Shown: piece after piece, positions 2,240 to 13,249 of the stretch
Numbering within the stretch: the stretch's first letter is position 1
Layout of the letters: every line of letters begins with the position of its first letter
Source: Sulfurospirillum sp.
GTDB taxonomy: Bacteria > Campylobacterota > Campylobacteria > Campylobacterales > Sulfurospirillaceae
DNA length: 64,000 nt
Assembly: GCA_016744795.1 (NCBI GenBank)
Contig: JADGDR010000006.1
Span: 124,001-188,000, forward strand
Direction: 5' to 3'
Made by a program: the position numbers and the translations under genes
Notes under the pieces: generated by a model
What the model saw: the letters and a program-made list of their open reading frames with translations, nothing else
Told to the model about the DNA's origin: nothing
Databases searched by the model: none

Positions 2240-2255
2240 AAATGGTTGAGTTGTC
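2240..2255. repeat. Candidate left attachment site (attR copy of ssrA 3' end)
   Basis: The 16 bases here match the end of ssrA at 12861-12876 in the same orientation with one mismatch (T for G at 2247). The ssrA copy covers the encoded CCA end and the acceptor stem. A direct repeat of a tmRNA 3' end at the far boundary of a region that carries an integrase next to ssrA is what site-specific integration leaves behind. Confidence 0.6.
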
Positions 2256-2348
2256 TTAAACCGATATATACTTACCATAAGCTTGCCATTAGTACTTTGA
2301 GATTATAAAAAAGTCTTTTATCTAAATATCAGAGTTAATGAAAAAAAC

Positions 2349-2359
2349 GGGTTGGTAAA
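2349..2359 (+). repeat. Left terminal inverted repeat of the IS
   Basis: GGGTTGGTAAA reads inward from the left end. It stops one base before the transposase stop codon at 2360-2362, so the coding frame fills the element to its very end. Confidence 0.75.
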
Positions 2360-3318
2360 TCATTTATTTTTCTTATAGTTTGTGAGATAGTAATCCACAA
2401 TTTTTAACTTCAAACTTTTACTCAACCCTCGATGTATTTTTATCAACATTTTCATAGGAGAGAATACTCCATCATCTAAACAATTAGTTGTGTTTGGAAT
2501 CTTGATTTTTTTGTACTTTTTAAATGTAAAAAGATAAGGCAAATTAGTCCTCAAACTTTTATAAGCAGCTACTAGTCTAGCATGAGTAAAAGACTCTTTT
2601 TTAGTATCTTCATTTAGAGTTTTTTCGTTTAAAAAATCTTTATATTTATCGTACCAATTATCAAGCTTTATAGTGAATTTAATATCGCTCGTTCTTGTTA
2701 AAGTAGAGACTATTTCTTTTAGTTCTTGGCTGGCTTCTAGTTTTGGATGTTTAGTTATATAGCGCTGTATGATTCTTTTCTGATGAAAGTTACACATTTG
2801 CACTGGATAATCTTCAAATGCTTTATATAAGCCTCTTTTGCCATCTATAGTGATAGATTTTATCTTATAGCCTAAATTTATTAGTTCTTGCAAAAGATAT
2901 TTATAATCATCTATCTTTTCACTTTGAATATGTTTCCAAATAAGTATCTCTTTACTATCTGCATCTTTAAAAACAAGAGTGCCTAATTTATCTTTTCTTT
3001 TGCCATAAAAAGTAGCATCACAAACTAAAATTACTTCTCTTGGATCATTAACTTTTTTAACAGGTTCATACTCTAATATTTGCTTTTTTATCCAAGGTAG
3101 ACTTTTATGATATTCAGCTGATAAATCTTGAAGTGTTTGTCTCTTGTATATGTATTCTTTGAATATGATTTCTTGTAGTTGTTTTGGTCTTCTTTTGGAA
3201 CTGAAATAGCTATCACAACTGTGACAAAAATATCTTTTTATTCCTCTTCTTCTACCCCATTTTATAACGCTATTTGAATAGCAATTTGGACATATTTTAT
3301 AGCTTTTTTACAATCCAT
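2360..3318 (-). pseudogene. IS256-family transposase, zinc-ribbon variant, frameshifted near its start
   Basis: The best start is ATG at 3318 (MDCKK), but the rest of the protein is in the next frame. One extra A in the A6 run at 3304-3309 would give MDCKKSYKICPNCYSNS, a proper zinc ribbon, followed by a second Cys pair (YFCHSCDSYF). The remaining frame is open to 2360, about 320 residues. It contains a DDE-like core: VCDATFYG with the first Asp, SITIDGKRGLYKAF with the second, a CNFHQKRIIQRYIT region, and NTTNCLDDGVFSPMK near the C-terminus where the third acidic residue is expected. The frame has no usable start after the shift until a TTG at 2893, past the first Asp. It is either inactive or depends on slippage at the A run. 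Confidence 0.7.
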
Positions 3319-3367
3319 TCTAAATAAACCTTTGTTTACTACCAATATACCATACTTTCAAGCACTT

Positions 3368-3378
3368 TTTACCAACCC
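3368..3378 (-). repeat. Right terminal inverted repeat of the IS
   Basis: TTTACCAACCC on the plus strand is the exact reverse complement of the left end. It lies about 50 bp upstream of the transposase start. Confidence 0.75.
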
Positions 3379-3521
3379 ATATTTTGCATTAAATCAAATA
3401 AATCTACTTTTTAGGGTTTACACAGTTATTTTTACACTCTCAATTTTATAAAGGAGCAATTATAGCTTTTGAGGGAAAGGATGATTTTGGCAAAGCATTA
3501 ATATCTTGGCTTATCACTTTT

Positions 3522-3770
3522 TTGATTACTCATATATTGTTGCTTTTTAGTTTTGCATTTTTAATTTCTTATTTCAATAACGTTAGTTATCTAAACTATT
3601 GGGTTGCATTATGGTCAAGTATGTTAATTGCATTAATCCCACGATATAGATTATTTTTATTTAGAATTATAAGTAGTCTAATGGTACTTTACCTTTGTAT
3701 ATGCTTGTTATTTATTTTAATCGCATTAGTTTTTAAGCCAACAATTTTTTTATTGCTAATTTTGATTTGA
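3522..3770 (+). CDS. Small hypothetical membrane protein, possibly 5'-truncated
   Basis: I do not recognise the family. The product is 82 residues from a TTG start and almost wholly hydrophobic, with three likely membrane helices (ITHILLLFSFAFLISYF, YWVALWSSMLIALIP, ISSLMVLYLCICLLFILIALVF). The frame is open back to 3402 and the extra residues (KGAIIAFEGKDDFGKALISW) look like real protein, but there is no ATG or GTG in them and no good ribosome site for the TTG. The gene may have lost its 5' end when the neighbouring IS inserted or rearranged. It is followed by another small hydrophobic frame. Confidence 0.4.
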   Translation: MITHILLLFSFAFLISYFNNVSYLNYWVALWSSMLIALIPRYRLFLFRIISSLMVLYLCICLLFILIALVFKPTIFLLLILI

Positions 3771-3806
3771 TTTTATTTAATTAAAAAAATCAATAGAAAC
3801 CCTCTT

Positions 3807-3956
3807 ATGGCAATAGGACTTATAATTATTGTTTTGACATATGTTCATAAAATTTGGAGCCTAACACCATTCATTTTATTTTTAGAAAATCCATTTCAAC
3901 ATTTCATAGAATATACTATTCCTTTATTTGTAAAACTAATCAATTTTAATTTTTGA
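3807..3956 (+). CDS. Hypothetical 49-residue membrane peptide
   Basis: ATG at 3807 to TGA at 3954-3956. One clear hydrophobic helix (GLIIIVLTYVHKIW) is followed by an amphipathic tail. No convincing ribosome binding site. It follows the small membrane protein by 36 bases and could be its displaced C-terminal part or a separate peptide. Low confidence; no family recognised. Confidence 0.3.
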   Translation: MAIGLIIIVLTYVHKIWSLTPFILFLENPFQHFIEYTIPLFVKLINFNF

Positions 3957-4070
3957 TAATTATTAGAATTCACGATAAAGTTTTTTGTCTGCAATAAATC
4001 AATGTCTAAGTTGAATGAGGCGTAGTCGTGGATGAGTAAGCGAACGATAGTTCACAAATATATTTATATA

Positions 4071-4261
4071 TTATTTTTGTTTATTTTCTATTTCTTCATT
4101 TATAACACTTAATGCTACTTCTAATTCTTCTTTAAAATAAACTAACTCCATTAATGAGAAGTCTCCATAAAAAGCTATTTCATTTGGTTTAGTATCAATA
4201 TTGACATTTAAGCCTTTATTTCTAGTAATCCCTTACATTCGTTATAATGGAGTATATCCAT
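4071..4261 (-). pseudogene. Remnant of a small unknown gene with one frameshift
   Basis: ATG at 4261 opens MDILHYNECKG and then goes out of frame. The next frame continues smoothly as GITRNKGLNVNIDTKPNEI, then AFYGDFSLMELVYFKEELE and ends with NEEIENKQK and TAA at 4071. The total of 191 bases is one base short of a whole number of codons, which fits a single indel near 4230. The joined product would be about 63 residues, acidic and helical at its end. No family recognised. The stretch from 3957 to 4070 beside it holds an unusually GC-rich patch (4012-4053) but no gene I can support. Confidence 0.35.
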
Positions 4262-4458
4262 GGTATACCCTTTATTTTTTTAAATATTTTTCAAAAGTAG
4301 AAAATTATATCTGTCTAATATAAAAATACATAAAAAGTATATATTTTTATGCAAGTTTATTAATTGATTAAAAGAAATATTTTCCTAAAAGTAGGTTTTT
4401 GATAAAGATTAAAATAAAATTCGTTACAATATGTTTTTTTATGTATTAAGGTTGATTT

Positions 4459-5358
4459 ATGGAAATTTATATCGAAGAAATAAATACTTTACAACATGCT
4501 GTTAAATATTATAATGATATAAAAAATACTTCGTTGGAAGAAGAGCTGATTATAAATTTTATAAAAGCTAAATTTATTCGTAATCATTATTTATCAATAA
4601 TTGGAATGGCTATAGAGGTTGTAAAAAAAAGAGGAGTTATCGTTAAAATAAAAAAGCCTATTGAAAAAAAAGTTTTGGACTCTATGATTAAAATAGGATT
4701 TTTAACAGTATTTTGTAATACAAAAAATAGAAAAGACACACATAACACTATGGTCAGGTATACTAACATTCCAATTGAAAATTATGGTTTAGATTTACAG
4801 AAGTTTTATTCGTATTTTATGAGACAATTTATGGGAAAAATTGATAATTTATCTCCAATACTATTAAAAAAAATTCTACAAAAATTTTTTGAACTTTTTT
4901 CAAATGTATTTAGACATAGTCAAAGTGCATTAGGTTTTTTCTGTTCAGGACAATTTTATCCAAAAAATAATAAATTTAATTTTACAATAGTAGATAACGG
5001 TGTAACAATCAAATCAAATGTCAATAAATATTTATTAAAAAAGCATATAGAAGAAAGGTCCTTTTCAGAAAAAATATTTAAAAAATTTAAACCTTTGAAT
5101 GGATTAGAAGCGATTGAATGGGCTTTAGTTGGTAATCATTCAACGACTGGTAGTGGAGGTCTAGGGTTGAGTTTGTTAATGGAATTAATTAAAGTTAGTG
5201 ATGGAGATATTGAGATTATATCTGGGGATGGATACTTTAGTACAAAACAAAGTAAAGTTTTAGAAAAGCCATTTGATGGTACAATAATTAGTGTCGAGTT
5301 AGACACAAATAAGGACAAATATTATTTTTTAAAGGAGGAAGTCAATGCAAATACTTAA
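4459..5358 (+). CDS. GHKL (HATPase_c) ATP-binding protein of a three-gene operon
   Basis: A 299-residue protein. The C-terminal half is a GHKL ATPase fold: N-box FELFSNVFRHS (Glu145, Asn149), G1 box IVDNGVTI (Asp179, Gly181) and G2 box TTGSGGLGLSLLMEL (residues 229-243). The first 120 residues resemble a small alpha/beta domain and show no dimerisation-phosphoacceptor histidine, so this is not an ordinary sensor kinase. It has the form of anti-sigma-like or MutL-like switch ATPases. The next gene overlaps it by 14 bases and has a strong AAGGAGG site inside this frame, so the two are translated together. Such ATPases are often paired with DUF4325 STAS-like proteins. Function is unknown; location inside an island suggests defence or stress control (inference). 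Confidence 0.75.
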   Translation: MEIYIEEINTLQHAVKYYNDIKNTSLEEELIINFIKAKFIRNHYLSIIGMAIEVVKKRGVIVKIKKPIEKKVLDSMIKIGFLTVFCNTKNRKDTHNTMVRYTNIPIENYGLDLQKFYSYFMRQFMGKIDNLSPILLKKILQKFFELFSNVFRHSQSALGFFCSGQFYPKNNKFNFTIVDNGVTIKSNVNKYLLKKHIEERSFSEKIFKKFKPLNGLEAIEWALVGNHSTTGSGGLGLSLLMELIKVSDGDIEIISGDGYFSTKQSKVLEKPFDGTIISVELDTNKDKYYFLKEEVNANT

Positions 5359-5692
5359 TGTTAAGAATATTATACAAAATACAATAGCAATGTCTACAGA
5401 AGACGGAGTAAAATTGTTTAATGAAGTTTATAAGGTACTAAAGAGTAAAGAAAGAGTTTGTATATCTTTTGAAGGTATAGACATTTTAATTTCTCATTTT
5501 CTAAATGAAGCGATTGGGAAGCAATATGAAAAATTTGATAATTGGGATATTTTAGATCAAGCTATTGAATATAAGAATTTGGATCAAAATGATTTTGATT
5601 TATTAAAAAACAAGGTTATCCCAACAGCAAAAAATCACTTTCAAGATGTAATAAAAAGTGAAAAAATAGAAAAAGAAATTTTAAATGATTAA
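5345..5692 (+). CDS. STAS-like protein (DUF4325 type)
   Basis: A 115-residue protein. The central pattern VCISFEGIDILISHFLNEAIGKQY (residues about 38-61) is the hallmark of STAS-like DUF4325 proteins, where a beta strand and a conserved F-x-x-E helix follow an FEGI motif. These proteins are usually found next to a GHKL ATPase and by analogy with SpoIIAA/SpoIIAB may be the switch partner of that ATPase (inference). A good ribosome site (AAGGAGG, 5332-5338) supports the ATG at 5345. The gene overlaps both neighbours, 14 bases upstream and 8 bases downstream, so the three products are likely made in fixed ratio. Confidence 0.7.
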   Translation: MQILNVKNIIQNTIAMSTEDGVKLFNEVYKVLKSKERVCISFEGIDILISHFLNEAIGKQYEKFDNWDILDQAIEYKNLDQNDFDLLKNKVIPTAKNHFQDVIKSEKIEKEILND

Positions 5693-6197
5693 TTTTACGA
5701 GCGTATACAATATAGAGGAATCAGACAATGTATTTATTGATACAAATATTTTAATATTCCTTTTTTCTCCTTCATTTGTAAATTCTAGAGAATTTCAAGT
5801 CGAAAAATATTCAAGTATCATGAGTTTGTTAATTCAAAAAAAATGTAAATTATTTATTAATGAATTGGTTGTGTCAGAATTTATTAATAGATGCATGAGA
5901 ATTGATTTTGAAAGAAACTTTAATAAAAATAATGATAAAAATTTCAAAAGAGACTATAGAAAAAGCCAAGAATATAAAGATACATTAAAAATTGTTATTA
6001 ATGAACTAAATAAGTTTTTAAAGTTTTCAAAACAAATAAACGATGATTTTATAAATTTTGAGATTTCAGAAAATATAGAAGCAGATTTCAATGATTTAAT
6101 AATTGCTGATACCGTAAAGAAAAATAATTTAAAATTACTAAGTGATGATGGAGATTATGAGGCTTTAGATATTGATACAAATTGGTATATTAGATAG
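5685..6197 (+). CDS. PIN-domain protein, putative RNase effector
   Basis: A 170-residue PIN-fold protein. The acidic active-site residues are all visible: FIDTNILIF (Asp19, Asn21), VVSEFINR (Glu65), FNDLIIADT (Asp137, Asp142) and LLSDDGDY (Asp154/155). PIN domains are metal-dependent RNases, familiar as VapC toxins. Here there is no VapB-like antitoxin. The gene instead follows a GHKL ATPase and a STAS-like protein and overlaps the latter by 8 bases. A plausible model is that the ATPase and STAS-like protein hold the nuclease inactive until a signal arrives. The nuclease family is clear; the model is inference. Confidence 0.75.
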   Translation: MINFTSVYNIEESDNVFIDTNILIFLFSPSFVNSREFQVEKYSSIMSLLIQKKCKLFINELVVSEFINRCMRIDFERNFNKNNDKNFKRDYRKSQEYKDTLKIVINELNKFLKFSKQINDDFINFEISENIEADFNDLIIADTVKKNNLKLLSDDGDYEALDIDTNWYIR

Positions 6198-6285
6198 TAC
6201 TCAACTACTACTCTTTCTGCATAAGTAACTCTCTTTTTCTATCGTTCTATCTTATTTTACTTCATAGGGAATAGATATAAATAAA

Positions 6286-7476
6286 TTATTTTCCACTTTT
6301 ATTCTCTTCAAAAGACCATTCTTTGAGAGTAACAGTTTCTATTGGTGTTAACTTATAAAATGAAGGCAGTTTTTTCTGTAGTTTATGAATTTCTTTATGA
6401 CATTTTTTACATACGGAGATAAGGTCACAATCATTTTCTTTTCCTAAATGCTCATACAAAATATGATGAACTTGTGTAGCATCATTTTGGCACACTTGGC
6501 ATTCATGATTATCTCTTAAGAGTATTCTTTCCCTAGTGTTACTCCATTCTAAAGAATCATAGTATGTTGAGAATGTGTCTCTTTCTTCTAAAATATATTT
6601 GCCATTTTTAATGTCTTGTTTTAATTGTTTATTAAACTCTTTTCTTTTGTCATTCATATATTTTTTTCTTTTGTCAGTCCATGGTCTGTACATAGTATTA
6701 TTAAATTTTTGCTGATTTAGCGTATATTTTTCTCTAACAGACTGATCAAAAGGTTTCAATAAAGAAAGGTCAGGAAAATCTTTTTTTGATATAGATTTGA
6801 TGTGATGTCCACATATTAAACATTGAAGTACAATAGCTCAGCCTGTCTTATAGTTTCTCATTCTAGGGGCATAGGTATTATGTTCACAGTAATGCCTTGC
6901 AGGAAGTGGATGAAGTTGTTCATATTCATTATATGCCTCTTGAATGTCAAACTCTGGTAGTTTGTCACCAATCCAATACTTTTTGTTATAAATTTCTTTG
7001 CGTTGTTCATTCCAGTTTTTAACTTTAGAATGATATTTATCAAGTAAAGTAGAATTATAGTTAGGAAGGTCTTCCCAGCCCTTAAAATCTTTTTTCTTTA
7101 AATGATTTGTAATAAACCCACACATTAAACATTGCTCAATAATATGTTTACTACCATTACTATAGGTTTGAAGTCTCATTTCTACATCTGTATGAGGACA
7201 GTTATTGAAGTTTACACGTGGATTTGGATTTTTCTCTTCATATTCTTGTACAGCTTTATTTGCTTCACAAATGAATATATCAAAATTTCTAGGCTTAAGC
7301 TTGTTGTTTTTTTTGTGTTTTTCAATTTGTATTAATACTAGTGAAATTTCGTTAGTATATATCTTATGTCAATATTCATCTATTTCAAGAGAAATATATT
7401 TTTCATAGTAAGACCACTCTAGTTCTCTCAAAATTTCTATATATTCGTTTAAGGGATTTTCCAAAATTTGGTTCAA
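6286..7476 (-). pseudogene. HNH endonuclease-like gene read through two in-frame TGA codons
   Basis: One uninterrupted frame runs from TTG at 7476 (AAGGA site 7 bases upstream) to 6286, about 396 codons, broken only by TGA at 7369-7371 and TGA at 6838-6840. Both fit a tryptophan: DEY[TGA]HKIY and NYKTG[TGA]AIVLQC. The C-terminal part has an HNH core (CQVCQNDATQVHHILYEH, then VCKKCHKEIH). Two zinc-type repeats precede it: CPHTDVEMRLQTYSNGSKHI ending in QCLMCG, and CEHNTYAPRMRNYKTG ending in QCLICG, each followed by KKDF. Without readthrough three fragments would be made; the last (up to 6759) keeps the HNH. Each stop is a single G-to-A change from TGG. Early decay is likelier than recoding. 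Confidence 0.65.
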
Positions 7477-7540
7477 TAAATATCCTTGCTTAAAGATTTA
7501 TAAAACATATAATAGTGTCGTTAATTTTGTTTCAAATTTC

Positions 7541-7922
7541 TTATTTTTCATTTAACCATTCTTCCCACCAGCTTATTAATTTTCTTTTCTCATCTATATA
7601 ACGCATTTTACTATCTCTACTATAAGCCGATTTGACTTTATTTGACTCAATATGTGCAAGACATGACTCAATAATATCACTATGCATACCATATTTTTTA
7701 ATATGGTCATGTGCATTAGTAGAAAACATTGCTCTAAAACTATGAGTAGTCATAGTATTTTTGTATCCAAGTCTCATAAGGGCTTGGAAAAACAAAATTT
7801 CCATCACCAAAAGAGTAGGACATTATTTGTTTTAAAATATTTATAGCTTTATCACATAGCGATAACACAAAATCTTTACCAGTTTTCATTTTATCAGCTG
7901 GAATATCTAAAAGAGCATTTTA
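7541..7922 (-). pseudogene. Remnant of a second tyrosine integrase, C-terminal part
   Basis: From 7922 the frame reads NALLDIPADKMKTGKDFVL to GDGNFVFPSP, then shifts and continues QALMRLGYKNTMTTHSFRA to the end at 7541. It closely matches the C-terminal third of the intact integrase at 11501-12724 (catalytic HxxR as HSFR, tyrosine in SAYSR). The internal deletion corresponds to 47 bp in the intact gene, bounded there by two copies of AGGGCTTG (11739-11746 and 11786-11793), so it arose by recombination between these short repeats. The N-terminal two thirds are missing. The substitutions elsewhere show that this is a diverged relative, not a recent copy. Confidence 0.8.
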
Positions 7923-7947
7923 ATATCTCCTTTAACTTGAATCTTTT

Positions 7948-8196
7948 TTAATTAAATTTATCAGTAGCCTTTTTAACAATGTCATCGCAGCATCCTGAAA
8001 TTTCTAAAGACAGATTATCAAGGTTTTTTCCTTTAACTAAAATTTTTGGTACTTTATTATGTTTATTACAGCGAAGAGTTCCTATTGATTCTTTAATTGA
8101 CTCAGAGTAACTTTGCAATATAGAAGCTTCTAGGCTTTCCTTTATATTGTTTGGGTTTGTTTTTTTTCCATTGATTTCAAATGAAATTTCTATCAT
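7948..8196 (-). CDS. Small unknown protein with conserved Cys/His pattern
   Basis: An 82-residue protein from ATG at 8196, preceded by a weak AGGTAC site. It is a compact alpha/beta sequence with LRCNKHNKVPKI (Cys and His at about residues 42-45) and a later SGCCDDIVKKA, spaced so that they could form a metal or disulfide site. I have no name for it. Genes of this shape are common in islands and near defence genes, but that is a general impression. It lies downstream of the ATPase-Mrr pair on the same strand, separated by a 254-base gap that holds a strong inverted repeat. Confidence 0.55.
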   Translation of the reverse strand: MIEISFEINGKKTNPNNIKESLEASILQSYSESIKESIGTLRCNKHNKVPKILVKGKNLDNLSLEISGCCDDIVKKATDKFN

Positions 8197-8339
8197 GATA
8201 GTACCTTTCTAATAATTTAATAAATAATAGTATATATTTTTTAGAATATAAAAAAATATTTCATTTTGAAAGATTTAACTTTATTAGATTCTATGATGTA
8301 TTTAAATATTTAACGAATTTAATAATCTTTAACTTCAAG

Positions 8340-8381
8340 TTAACTATATTGACTTTTAAATTAGACAGTCAATATAGTTAA
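8340..8381. repeat. Perfect 15-base inverted repeat (hairpin) downstream of the ATPase gene
   Basis: TTAACTATATTGACT at 8340-8354 is exactly complementary to 8367-8381, with a 12-base loop. It lies in the otherwise empty gap 8197-8450, about 70 bases past the stop of the ATPase gene. There is no T run after it on either strand, so it is not a typical intrinsic terminator. It could be a processing hairpin or a protein-binding site. Confidence 0.6.
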
Positions 8382-8450
8382 TAAAAAGCCGGTTTATTTA
8401 AAGGCAAGTGTTTTTATACTCTATCATCTGGAAAAAGAATAATTTTTATT

Positions 8451-10475
8451 CTATTCACTAGGGATATCTTTAAAATATTTATCTATTATTGTCTGTTGAA
8501 GTGCTTCATCTTCTTTAATAAACCCCACTACTCTATTTTTATAATCTCTTAATATTTTGTCACCTACAAAACTTAGCATTCCTTTATTATTATAATGCTT
8601 TAATGCTCTATCATAGTCTTCAGTATCACATATTTCATTTAGAAGTTGACTATGTTCATCATAAAAACCTTGTATTTCCAAGGTTTTTATGGCATTTTCA
8701 AGTTCTTCATTTAATTTTGTTGCTGTACTCGCCCTACCAACTAAACTATTTAAAATTTTATCTGTTTTAAACCTTGTATAACCCATAGATTGTACATCTT
8801 CTGTTTCTTTTATTTTTATAAAGATTTGTTTTTTAGCATTATCATAATCATCTTCTGATGCATGTACTTTTAATTGTATTTCTTTAAGTATATCATCATC
8901 ACAAAGTATGTTTTCTACTTCCATAACTTCAAGAGTGTATATATCATTATCTTTCCATGCCATTATTTCATCAATTTCATAAAAATCTTTATCTATAATC
9001 GCAATTGCTTTTAGGTTAAACATCTCGGTATTACCATTAAAAGCTTTACAATAATCAATTGCTTTTTGATGCCCTCCTACTGGAATAATTGTGTAGCTTT
9101 TAAATAAAATAGAATATAGCTTATAATCATAGCTATCTTTTTCGCCCTTACAAAATAAAATATTTTTTTTACTTCCTATAAGTTCCACTAGCAACGCTTG
9201 AGGGAGTATTTCATCTGTAGTTATTTCAATGTAGTCCCAATTTGTAGGTGGAGTATATTTTTTTATCCATAATATTTTTGCTTGAGTTCTACCTGTTGCA
9301 AAACTAGGATTATGAGTAAGATATACAAACTGGCAATCATTTCTAATATCTTCTAATTTATCCCATAATTTATTTACTATAGACATATGAAGATGATTTT
9401 CTGGTTCATCTACTATCACGTATCCATCTTTATCGACTAATAACACACTAGCGATACAATAAAATATATTTTTCTCTCCATCACTTAAACCCATGAAACT
9501 ATATTCATTGCCATTTTCAGGGATTGCTTTTATATTGCCTTGTCCATCATATCTAAGCTTTATATGTGTTATTATTTCTTCCCATATACTAATAACGTTT
9601 TCAAGAGTTGAGTTTTCTTTTTCAAAGTCTCCTTTTAGACAGTTTAGATGAGTTCTATTCGCTGTTTCTTGATATTCTGCTATTAAAAGGTTTATCATTT
9701 GATTAAATTCACTATTGATGATACCCATATCATCAGTATTTTTATATAACTTGTCATGTGTATGACTTCTTGAAAAATCTAAATATGCACGAGTCTTTAA
9801 AGGTATACTCTGATTGTCCTGAACTCCAAATGTTTTTTGTGCAGGTATAACAGCTACAAGAGAGTTATATTGTTGATTAATATTAGTCTTTATTTGACGT
9901 GAAAAAGTACTTTTTCCAGAGCCATTAGCACCTATTAAAATTAAATTTTCATTTTTGTTTTTGAGTAAATCAAAAAGTTCTATAGTTGATAGTGCTCCAA
10001 TCATAGTTTGTAAATTATTAGGTGTATTTGATAATGTACTAGTGAACAAACTTAAAATAGTGTGGTCAGCTATATTAATATGCTCATTATTTATAATTGC
10101 TTGTATATTTATATTTTCATTAAAAGTATTTAAACTATTTAATCCTGTGTAATCATTTTCAAAACTAGGATTGAAAGATAAATGTTTATTAAGTAATTCA
10201 ATATATTTATCTGCATAATCGTTATCAGTAATTTCTCTAAGAATCTTCTCTAGGTTTTCTTTTATTTGTTCAATACTTAATTCTAGTATTTTTATTACCA
10301 TATTGTCATAGTGACTTGGGTTACGAGTATAATTGTGAGGATTAGAAAATGAAAAATAATGTGCAGTTATTGTTTTTATATAAACATTATTTTCTTTCCA
10401 AAATGATTGTAGTTTTGATATATTTTCTATATAATCTATGCGTCTACGTATTTTACTTATTACTTCTTGTTTCAT
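8451..10475 (-). CDS. AAA ATPase fused to a DUF4435/TOPRIM-like domain (OLD/PARIS-like)
   Basis: A 674-residue protein. The ATPase part has Walker A IGANGSGKST (about 181-190), an ABC-type signature GLSDGEKN (about 329-336), Walker B YVIVDEPENHLH (about 352-363) and a switch His in LTHNPS (388). The last third fits DUF4435, a TOPRIM-like fold: FCKGEKDSYD with Glu445 and Asp447, IAIIDKDFYEID with Asp495 and Asp497, and LEVMEVENIL. This is the plan of OLD-family nucleases and of the fused AriA-AriB protein of PARIS anti-phage systems. The first 170 residues are helical and unassigned. An Mrr-type nuclease gene lies 53 bases upstream on the same strand. Defence is the likely role (inference from family and island location). 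Confidence 0.75.
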   Translation of the reverse strand: MKQEVISKIRRRIDYIENISKLQSFWKENNVYIKTITAHYFSFSNPHNYTRNPSHYDNMVIKILELSIEQIKENLEKILREITDNDYADKYIELLNKHLSFNPSFENDYTGLNSLNTFNENINIQAIINNEHINIADHTILSLFTSTLSNTPNNLQTMIGALSTIELFDLLKNKNENLILIGANGSGKSTFSRQIKTNINQQYNSLVAVIPAQKTFGVQDNQSIPLKTRAYLDFSRSHTHDKLYKNTDDMGIINSEFNQMINLLIAEYQETANRTHLNCLKGDFEKENSTLENVISIWEEIITHIKLRYDGQGNIKAIPENGNEYSFMGLSDGEKNIFYCIASVLLVDKDGYVIVDEPENHLHMSIVNKLWDKLEDIRNDCQFVYLTHNPSFATGRTQAKILWIKKYTPPTNWDYIEITTDEILPQALLVELIGSKKNILFCKGEKDSYDYKLYSILFKSYTIIPVGGHQKAIDYCKAFNGNTEMFNLKAIAIIDKDFYEIDEIMAWKDNDIYTLEVMEVENILCDDDILKEIQLKVHASEDDYDNAKKQIFIKIKETEDVQSMGYTRFKTDKILNSLVGRASTATKLNEELENAIKTLEIQGFYDEHSQLLNEICDTEDYDRALKHYNNKGMLSFVGDKILRDYKNRVVGFIKEDEALQQTIIDKYFKDIPSE

Positions 10476-10528
10476 TATAAATCCTACAATCTAAAAGATT
10501 ATGTATTATAAATAAATACTATTTGATA

Positions 10529-11491
10529 TTACTTATTTATATTTAAAGTCATATAGGCAGTTTTTAATATATCTTGAATATTTCCTGTCCAATTATAATG
10601 AATATGTTTTCTCATCTCATAATCAAAATTATCAATATTTATCAATTCTAGACGTTTTGAATCGTTTGCATAATCAATACAAGGACGTGTAAAATAAGTA
10701 CTCGCTATTAATATTCCTTTTGTTACACTTTTGGAGACTGTTGTACCCATTAACTGTCTTGCTATAGGTACACCAACGAATTTTTTACTATGTTTACATT
10801 CAATATGAAGTAGGATACTTTCTCTATCATTGTTCTTTTCGGCAATAACATCATAACCGCCATCTCTCGTACGTTTAGTCAATTTTATGTTATATTTTTT
10901 TTGATTATATAGATATGCAACTAATACTTCAAAATTCCTCCATGTTAAGCTATCCAATGTCTCTTGAACTGGTAATGAATGTTGCATATATTTTGCTTGA
11001 ATTATTTTTTTAGCATCAAATAATCCAGTATATCTGCCATCAGGTAAAAATTGACAAAAATTTTGTATATATGAATCTAATGCATTTAATGCAGATTCTG
11101 GGAAATTAGGTAATAAATCTACAATCCATTGTATTGACGGCCATGCACTTTGATTAGGTAAAGGTAAAAATACTTTTTTTAAAAATAAAGATTCATTTAA
11201 TTTTTCTTTTAATTCTTTCCCCGAACAAAGATTTAAATTCTCTCTTATTTGATCATCAGATTGCAAATGTCCTTCAGGTAATAAAAATTTTATCAATATT
11301 TTTTTAACATCTTCATTTGTTCTGGCATCAATGCTACCAATATATTCTTTGTAATGTTTTTCATTTGCAAACATATAATCAATAAAATATTTATCTTTAT
11401 GTGTTGAGTGTATTTTTTTTAACCACTCATCTAAAGACAGATTAGTACCAGTTTCATCAATGAGTTTTTCTAGTTTAAAATCTTGTTTCAT
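10529..11491 (-). CDS. Mrr-like restriction endonuclease with unknown N-terminal domain
   Basis: A 320-residue protein. The C-terminal half is an Mrr_cat PD-(D/E)xK fold: LTWRNFEVLVAYLY (about 182-195), then RDGGYDVIAEK (catalytic Asp214), HIECKH (Glu231, Lys233) and the VPIARQLMGT helix typical of Mrr. Residues 1-170 are helical and not recognised; they may bind a partner or DNA. Mrr enzymes cut modified or foreign DNA. The ATG at 11491 follows a run of T and C in the plus strand that reads as a GGAGAA ribosome site on the coding strand. The gene lies 9 bases from the integrase end and 53 bases upstream of the AAA-DUF4435 gene, so the two likely form one defence operon. Confidence 0.75.
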   Translation of the reverse strand: MKQDFKLEKLIDETGTNLSLDEWLKKIHSTHKDKYFIDYMFANEKHYKEYIGSIDARTNEDVKKILIKFLLPEGHLQSDDQIRENLNLCSGKELKEKLNESLFLKKVFLPLPNQSAWPSIQWIVDLLPNFPESALNALDSYIQNFCQFLPDGRYTGLFDAKKIIQAKYMQHSLPVQETLDSLTWRNFEVLVAYLYNQKKYNIKLTKRTRDGGYDVIAEKNNDRESILLHIECKHSKKFVGVPIARQLMGTTVSKSVTKGILIASTYFTRPCIDYANDSKRLELINIDNFDYEMRKHIHYNWTGNIQDILKTAYMTLNINK

Positions 11492-11500
11492 ATTATTCTC

Positions 11501-12724
11501 CTACAAGTTTATTATCCACTTATCCCACCACTTAATCAATTCTCTCTTCTCATCAATATATCTCATTTTACTATCTCTACTATAAGCTGATTTTACTTTA
11601 TTAGATTCTATATGAGCTAAGCAGGACTCAATAATATCACTATGCATACCATGTTCTTTAATATAATCATGTGCATTAGTAGAGAACATTGCCCTAAACC
11701 CATGAGTAGTCATAGTATTTTTATATCCTAGTCTCATAAGGGCTTGATTTAAAGTATTTTCACTAATAGGTTTTATTTTACTTGTAGGGCTTGGAAAAAC
11801 AAAAGTCCCATCACCATAAGAGTAGGGCATTATTTGTTTTAAAATATCTATAGCTTTATCACATAAAGGTAATACAAAAGCTGTACCAGTTTTCATTTTT
11901 TCTGCTGGTATATCTAATAAAGCGTTTTCTAAATCAACTTCATCCCAAGTTAAATTGCGTAAGTTAAAAGGGCGTAAGAAAACATAAGGTGCTAATTGTA
12001 ATGCGTATACGGTACTGATATCTGAACGGAAACTAGTACCGTAACTTTGAATATCTTTCATAAGTACTTTTATATCTTCTTTTTTTAAAATAGCTGGAAA
12101 ATGTTTTACTGTAGGTTTTTTAATAGCATTTCTTTTATCAATGTCAGCTATGATATTGTGTTCTACTATGTTGTAGGTTACAGCATATTTATATATACGT
12201 TCTATGTAATTTAAAAGTCTATTGGCACTTTCTATAGTACCTTTCTTTTCCATTATCTTTATAAGGTCTAGAATATCTGTACGTTTTATATCTTTCATAG
12301 GTTTTGTGCCTAAGTAAGGATAGGTATTGTTAGTAATTACACTTTTTGCTTTTACGTAAGTTACTTCTTTCCATTCACTTTTCATAATCTCTAGCCATTT
12401 TTCAGTTACATTCTCAAACGTAGTTATATCATGGCTCTTTTTATTTCGTATAGGGTCAATACCCTGTTTTATTAGTTGTTTGGTTGCTTCTCGCTGCATA
12501 CGAGCTTCTTTTAATGAGATATCAGGGTATACACCAAAAGACATAGATTTACGTTTACTGTCAAGGCTATAGTCAAAACGAAAGAATTTTGTGCCATTAG
12601 GACGAATTACTATAAATAAGCCTTGTCCATCACCAAGTTTATATGCTTTTTCTTTTGGTTTAGACCTTTTTATCTCTGCATCACTTAATGGTTTAGTTAT
12701 ACGTGGCATTTTAGCGGTACTCAC
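11501..12724 (-). CDS. int: P4-type tyrosine integrase of the ssrA island
   Basis: A 407-residue integrase with the DUF4102 arm-binding domain at its start (SDAEIKRSKPKEKAYKLGDG, then KSMSFGVYPDISLKEARMQR). A core-binding region follows (about 115-190), then the catalytic domain: the first Arg in FLRPFNLRNLTWDEVD, HGFRAMFST (HxxR) and the tyrosine in SAYSRDSKM. This family integrates islands at the 3' ends of tRNA and tmRNA genes. Its position 140 bases from the ssrA end fits that. The frame starts with GTG at 12724; an ATG five codons later is possible, and neither has a clear ribosome site. A palindrome at 12737-12750 just upstream may be its operator. All catalytic residues are present, so it may be active. 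Confidence 0.92.
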   Translation of the reverse strand: MSTAKMPRITKPLSDAEIKRSKPKEKAYKLGDGQGLFIVIRPNGTKFFRFDYSLDSKRKSMSFGVYPDISLKEARMQREATKQLIKQGIDPIRNKKSHDITTFENVTEKWLEIMKSEWKEVTYVKAKSVITNNTYPYLGTKPMKDIKRTDILDLIKIMEKKGTIESANRLLNYIERIYKYAVTYNIVEHNIIADIDKRNAIKKPTVKHFPAILKKEDIKVLMKDIQSYGTSFRSDISTVYALQLAPYVFLRPFNLRNLTWDEVDLENALLDIPAEKMKTGTAFVLPLCDKAIDILKQIMPYSYGDGTFVFPSPTSKIKPISENTLNQALMRLGYKNTMTTHGFRAMFSTNAHDYIKEHGMHSDIIESCLAHIESNKVKSAYSRDSKMRYIDEKRELIKWWDKWIINL

Positions 12725-12736
12725 TTTTAAATTTTG

Positions 12737-12750
12737 TAACGGTACCGTTA
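12737..12750. promoter_or_regulatory. Palindrome upstream of the integrase gene, candidate operator
   Basis: TAACGGTACCGTTA is a perfect 14-base palindrome 12 bases upstream of the integrase start, and a second GTACCG follows at 12754-12759. The position suits autoregulation by an integrase or excisionase. No experiment-like evidence; inference from position and symmetry. Confidence 0.4.
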
Positions 12751-12835
12751 ATAGTACCGCAAAAGAATTTTAAAGTCAATGAATGTTAGTGAATTCACAT
12801 GAAGGATAAAAGCCTATTTTACCGAAGTTTTAGTG

Positions 12836-12855
12836 TTCGTGTGAATTCGTGTGAA
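12836..12855. repeat. Tandem 10-base repeat next to ssrA, candidate integrase arm sites
   Basis: TTCGTGTGAA occurs twice head to tail, ending 5 bases before the att repeat at 12861. A related GTGAATTCACATGAA lies at 12790-12804. Short direct repeats beside the core site are typical of the arm-binding sites of P4-type integrases. Confidence 0.4.
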
Positions 12856-12860
12856 TAGAT

Positions 12861-12876
12861 AAATGGTGGAGTTGTC
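12861..12876. repeat. Right attachment site, overlapping the ssrA 3' end
   Basis: This is the ssrA-side copy of the 16-base repeat at 2240-2255. It includes the encoded CCA and the 3' acceptor strand of tmRNA, so integration here restores a complete ssrA gene. Confidence 0.6.
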
Positions 12877-13249
12877 CGGAATCGAACCGGAGTCCAAAAG
12901 TAGCCACCGATGACGTCTACATGCTTAAAGAAGTTGTTTATGTTTAATTTTGATTCACACAACTAACAAAGTTACTCAAAACGAGCCCCTAATTTCATTT
13001 TAAGCCGAGACAAACTCAAAATATATCTATTATAGCTATGATACTTCCAAAATCTCCCTTGAATAGAATCAGGAGTGGAAGCAGTCCTACAGCAATGAAG
13101 CTATAAGTTAAAACTTACGCTACTGCGTAAGCTGGACGATAGTTACTGTTATTAGCAGTTATGTTTTTGAAGGTTGTCTAACGCAAGACCCTCACTCGCG
13201 ACATGCAGCCATAAGCTAAAACTACTCCTGTCGAAGCCATGTCAACCCC
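12864..13249 (-). ncRNA. ssrA: Transfer-messenger RNA (tmRNA)
   Basis: About 386 bases on the minus strand. The 5' end (GGGGTTGACATGGCTTCGAC) and 3' end (GGTTCGATTCCGGACAACTC then CACCA) form the tRNA-like domain with a T-arm and an encoded CCA. The reading frame at 13156-13115 starts with the resume codon GCT and encodes ANNSNYRPAYAVA followed by TAA, a normal proteolysis tag ending in hydrophobic residues. tmRNA with SmpB frees stalled ribosomes and tags the broken protein. Its 3' end is the insertion site of the neighbouring island; the gene is complete. Confidence 0.97.

Follow-up and report, generated by a model that had tools for sequence, protein, structure and literature searches.

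A fused PARIS homologue and an Mrr-type nuclease gene carried by an integrative island at ssrA in Sulfurospirillum sp.

In the window analysed here (the whole 64,000-nt stretch, from contig JADGDR010000006.1 of Sulfurospirillum sp.), an integrative island of about 10.6 kb in the 3′ end of the tmRNA gene, ssrA, carries among its cargo two adjacent genes on one strand: one for an Mrr-type nuclease, and one for a fused AriAB, the single-chain form of PARIS. The best explanation, to which we would give a probability of about three in four, is an ssrA island with two separate defence genes, an Mrr restriction nuclease and a single-chain PARIS, both on one strand and downstream of the island integrase. 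The Mrr-like nuclease would act on its own, cutting modified foreign DNA in a type IV-like manner. The ABC part of AriAB would sense a protein of the phage, in the typical case a DNA mimic with anti-restriction activity, of which Ocr is one; this would release the Toprim part, leading to tRNA cleavage and a stop to the infected cell. In this strain the nuclease step of PARIS is probably weak or dead, through a lysine at residue 443.

The island and its boundaries

The features discussed below are as follows, in window coordinates.

2241..2256 (+): left attachment repeat, AATGGTTGAGTTGTCT, with 2 mismatches (repeat comparison)
7541..7921 (-): C-terminal part of a second, decayed integrase, left as two pieces that differ in frame (88-89% identity to the intact gene)
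8344..8381 (-): inverted repeat, forming a hairpin with 15-bp arms some 70 nt beyond the stop codon of ariAB (folding energy -16.8 kcal/mol; z = -5.8 against shuffles)
8451..10475 (-): fused AriAB, single-chain PARIS, 674 aa (Pfam, PADLOC, and PHROG matches), with a helical N-terminal extension (about 1-165), an OLD/ABC ATPase (about 172-405), and a DUF4435/Toprim domain (about 438-672)
9147..9149 (-): AAG codon for Lys443, at the position of the glutamate of the Toprim "EG" motif (DNA read and homologue alignment)
10529..11491 (-): Mrr-type PD-(D/E)XK nuclease, 320 aa (Mrr_cat match)
11501..12724 (-): tyrosine integrase, 407 aa, Arm-DNA-bind_3 and Phage_integrase domains (Pfam, E down to 3.6e-23)
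12862..12877 (+): right attachment repeat, AATGGTGGAGTTGTCC, at the 3′ end of ssrA (repeat comparison)
12864..13249 (-): tmRNA gene ssrA, the target of the island (ARAGORN)

The element has what is expected of an integrative element at ssrA: an integrase, 16-bp direct repeats, and an empty site in relatives. In two sister genomes of the same genus (G165 and G415), the genes that flank the island adjoin each other across ssrA, with the approximately 10.6 kb from about 2240 to 12861 missing. The genes for AriAB, Mrr, and the integrase make up the ssrA-proximal part of the island; the integrase gene, which is intact, precedes the Mrr gene at a distance of 9 nt, and ssrA lies just beyond the integrase. 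The first-pass annotation mentioned neither this integrase nor ssrA as the attachment site, nor the N-terminal extension of AriAB and the lysine at residue 443 that are described below. The island also contains the decayed integrase remnant at 7541-7921, and is therefore composite. Beside this remnant, at 6286-7179 (-), are two ORFs resembling pieces of an HNH-type protein; the 157-aa ORF has a weak HNH match.

The fused AriAB protein

The first-pass annotation described the 674-residue protein as an ABC-like ATPase joined to a DUF4435/TOPRIM domain in one chain, like a fused form of PARIS AriA-AriB or an OLD nuclease. The chain and its domains were confirmed: the ORF is present, and its matches to AAA_21 (E = 2.8e-13) and DUF4435 (E = 3.6e-9) are both above the Pfam cut-offs. 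Of the two proposed identities, only PARIS held. The PADLOC AriAB model (PDLC02982) spans residues 172-672 with E = 5.4e-108, and PHROG 25246 matches residues 115-672 with E = 1.2e-117, while the PADLOC models for GajA (7e-9), PtuA, and AbiL are many orders weaker. An OLD/ABC ATPase and a DUF4435/Toprim domain in one chain is the domain arrangement that defines the fused form of PARIS, and a single-gene ariAB has already been described (Rousset et al., 2022; PMC9122126). Identification of the protein as a fused form of AriA-AriB, a known kind of anti-phage gene, is thus supported at the level of sequence.

That it might instead be an OLD or Gabija (GajA) nuclease is scarcely credible. The weak GajA and PtuA matches point that way, as does a fold search that favours PtuA ATPases; but the AriAB model outscores GajA by 5e-108 to 7e-9, the Toprim domain is of the DUF4435 type, and no GajB helicase gene was found among the island ORFs. 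The class 2 (OLD/Gabija) identity was rejected on two of these points, the GajA score and the helicase partner.

Compared with the fused PARIS already described (PDLC02982; PMC9122126), the window protein has the same order of ATPase followed by DUF4435/Toprim, intact ATPase motifs, and carriage on a mobile element. In the homologue alignment, residues G182, K188, D332, E334, D356, E357, and H388 of the Walker A, signature, and Walker B motifs are all kept. It differs from PDLC02982 in having an extra helical N-terminal region of about 165 aa, a lysine for the Toprim glutamate, and an Mrr neighbour.

The N-terminal extension has few counterparts. The nearest relative (G274, 45% identity) has one that is weakly similar, and the AriAB of a temperate Oenococcus phage has a shorter one; in the other relatives, AriAB begins just before the P-loop. 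The phage protein (phi9805 AHC30354, 626 aa, within PHROG 25246) is likewise a long AriAB with an N-terminal extension, 34% identical over the shared part, but has its Toprim glutamate intact and no Mrr neighbour. The window sequence adds a long-form fused PARIS homologue, together with its mobile carrier, in Campylobacterota.

In PARIS, the ABC ATPase forms a hexamer that retains the Toprim nuclease; on sensing of a phage protein such as Ocr, the nuclease goes on to cut tRNAs; the E26A Toprim mutant of AriB is inactive (PMC12409363). Residue 443 of the window protein is taken to be the equivalent of AriB E26, from the "EG" motif of the Toprim domain and the distance between this motif and DxD (PDB sequence searches matched no AriB chain). 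All 24 of the other distinct homologues with letters in the "EG" column have glutamate there; only the window AriAB has lysine. The catalytic set of the PARIS Toprim domain (Glu; DxD) is accordingly incomplete in this protein, with the DxD kept (D495, D497) and residue 443 a lysine. Because this lysine replaces a glutamate invariant in 24 other homologues, the Toprim nuclease, a putative tRNase, is probably weakened or killed in this strain, and the protein is best filed as a PARIS homologue, probably nuclease-impaired, rather than as a proven working PARIS. The change from glutamate to lysine offers a clean test of whether this copy of PARIS is a dead remnant or acts via another effector.

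Structure prediction of both proteins had been proposed as a check in the first-pass annotation. The two AlphaFold (AF2) models, one of each protein, are weak (mean pLDDT values of 43 and 52, from three-row alignments), and their fold matches are leads only: the ATPase part of the AriAB model resembles PtuA (the best match) and AriA chains, and the Mrr model is closest to the modification-dependent enzymes MspJI and AspBHI. These matches agree with the sequence evidence and add little to it; sequence comparison is the main basis for assigning the Toprim fold.

The Mrr-type nuclease and its neighbour

The gene before ariAB on the same strand was annotated in the first pass as an Mrr nuclease with an unrecognised 170-residue N-terminal domain, and both statements are correct. 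Mrr_cat matches residues 179-289 of the 320-aa protein (Pfam, E = 1.2e-21), and the D...ExK active site is intact (D214, E231, and K233), with the catalytic motif conserved in all relatives in the alignment. For residues 1-170, no family was matched in Pfam, NCBIfam, or PHROGs; this region is predicted to be helical, in a low-confidence model, and the helical N-terminal domain is common to a small family found in Bacillota plasmids and prophages. Mrr-type modification-dependent (type IV) enzymes, as represented by the PADLOC families mREase_IV and PDC-S02, have the same Mrr_cat domain with an intact D-ECK motif, while the N-terminal domain of the window protein is of another, uncharacterised helical kind. 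The protein probably cuts modified foreign DNA in a type IV-like manner.

The Mrr and AriAB ORFs are both intact and lie side by side on one strand, 53 nt apart. With this arrangement, and with nothing resembling a terminator in the gap, they may be co-expressed. A promoter scan found sites no more frequently than expected by chance. The hairpin at 8344-8381, past the ariAB stop, has no T-run and is therefore not a standard terminator.

The first-pass annotation went further, suggesting a variant defence operon with two nucleases, and proposed a count of how often the two families occur together. AriAB homologues (at E below 1e-30) are encoded by 13 of 397 Campylobacterota genomes and the full-length Mrr family by two; the genome of the window is the only one of the 397 with both. 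No Mrr relative lies beside AriAB at any of 25 other loci (from 12 Campylobacterota genomes, 10 plasmids, one phage, and two viral contigs), and none of the five other full-length Mrr relatives (in G376, plasmids of Mesobacillus and Paenibacillus, and two viral contigs) has AriAB nearby. A tblastn search with both proteins over the collected loci found them together only in the loci of the window itself. These comparisons cover Campylobacterota genomes, plasmids, phages, and profile-based viral scans; scans of genome contigs and single-protein viral scans recovered no relatives. ATPase relatives thus occur without Mrr and Mrr relatives without the ATPase, the outcome under which the annotation itself would have had them as two separate genes, and a special two-nuclease operon is not supported. 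That Mrr and AriAB together make up a single two-nuclease defence system is an improbable reading: the shared strand, the short spacing, and the two intact ORFs would fit it, but the pair recurs at none of the 25 AriAB loci and with none of the five Mrr relatives. The two are probably mere neighbours, though with both genes side by side on one strand a functional link peculiar to this locus is conceivable.

A different kind of connection would be an effector swap, in which the Toprim domain is dead through K443 and the sensing ATPase of AriAB has come to control the active Mrr nuclease next to it; if true, a tRNA-cutting suicide system would have been turned into a DNA-cutting one. The lysine at a position that is otherwise glutamate, the intact ATPase motifs, and the intact catalytic residues of Mrr are all in keeping with this, and there is a precedent in reported OLD-ABC ATPases whose partner is a PD-(D/E)XK nuclease in place of Toprim (PMC12839542). 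As in those systems, an OLD-ABC gene here adjoins a PD-(D/E)XK nuclease gene; unlike in them, the window AriAB still has a Toprim domain, though one that has lost the glutamate, and the Mrr-AriAB pair is not conserved. The substitution is moreover confined to a single lineage, its AAG codon is one base from a glutamate codon, and the relatives of Mrr stand alone. A recent inactivating mutation explains K443 equally well, and the swap must be considered very improbable.

One other pairing does recur. In one Campylobacterota genus (g6), AriAB lies 23 nt after a gene for a 399-aa AAA_14 ATPase in five of five genomes (L066 and L144-L147), and a second AAA_14-like gene, of 412 aa, is found 3′ of AriAB in four of the five (L066, L144, L145, and L147). 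Conserved as the pairing with Mrr is not, the AAA_14 gene may be a real accessory gene.

Restriction neighbours and a possible further module of the island

Several of the other fused AriAB genes in Campylobacterota are in or touching restriction loci. In the nearest relative (G274, locus L063), the gene is part of a type I restriction operon, with hsdS on one side and, on the other, a RhuM/Fic protein gene and then HsdR; in G011 and G162, only 1-2 nt separate it from the type IIG enzyme gene before it; in G106, it begins 19 nt after a methylase/helicase pair; and in G169, a type III-like protein with a RE_endonuc domain is encoded about 1 kb upstream of an AAA_14-AriAB pair. The host genome of the window also encodes its own HsdR. 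PARIS inside BREX has been published (PMC11341690, PMC12839542), and the loci listed here are further cases of fused PARIS in a restriction setting, which would be expected were PARIS to monitor anti-restriction proteins. The Mrr neighbour matches the pattern, which makes a consistent picture and not a test against a background rate.

These loci, with the BREX cases, are the argument for a restriction-guard pair, in which AriAB would fire when a phage disables restriction, the guarded enzyme would be Mrr, and the two, while separate proteins, would have been selected together. Several points tell against it: defence genes cluster anyway; restriction neighbours are lacking for most of the AriAB genes on plasmids and in phages; and the PARIS of a Salmonella BREX island gave no Ocr response in reported tests. 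A guard relationship with Mrr is thus possible but doubtful, and two separate defence genes carried by one ssrA island remain the preferred reading.

The island also carries, at 4459-6197 (+), three overlapping genes that encode a GHKL ATPase, a DUF4325/STAS-like protein, and a PIN domain protein. Four further Campylobacterota genomes (L154-L157), as well as a plasmid of Deinococcus gobiensis (L152), have the same trio in the same order. In the literature collection searched, no paper combined DUF4325, "PIN domain," and phage. The trio may be a conserved toxin or defence module that has yet to be described, and it looks more novel than the AriAB-Mrr finding.
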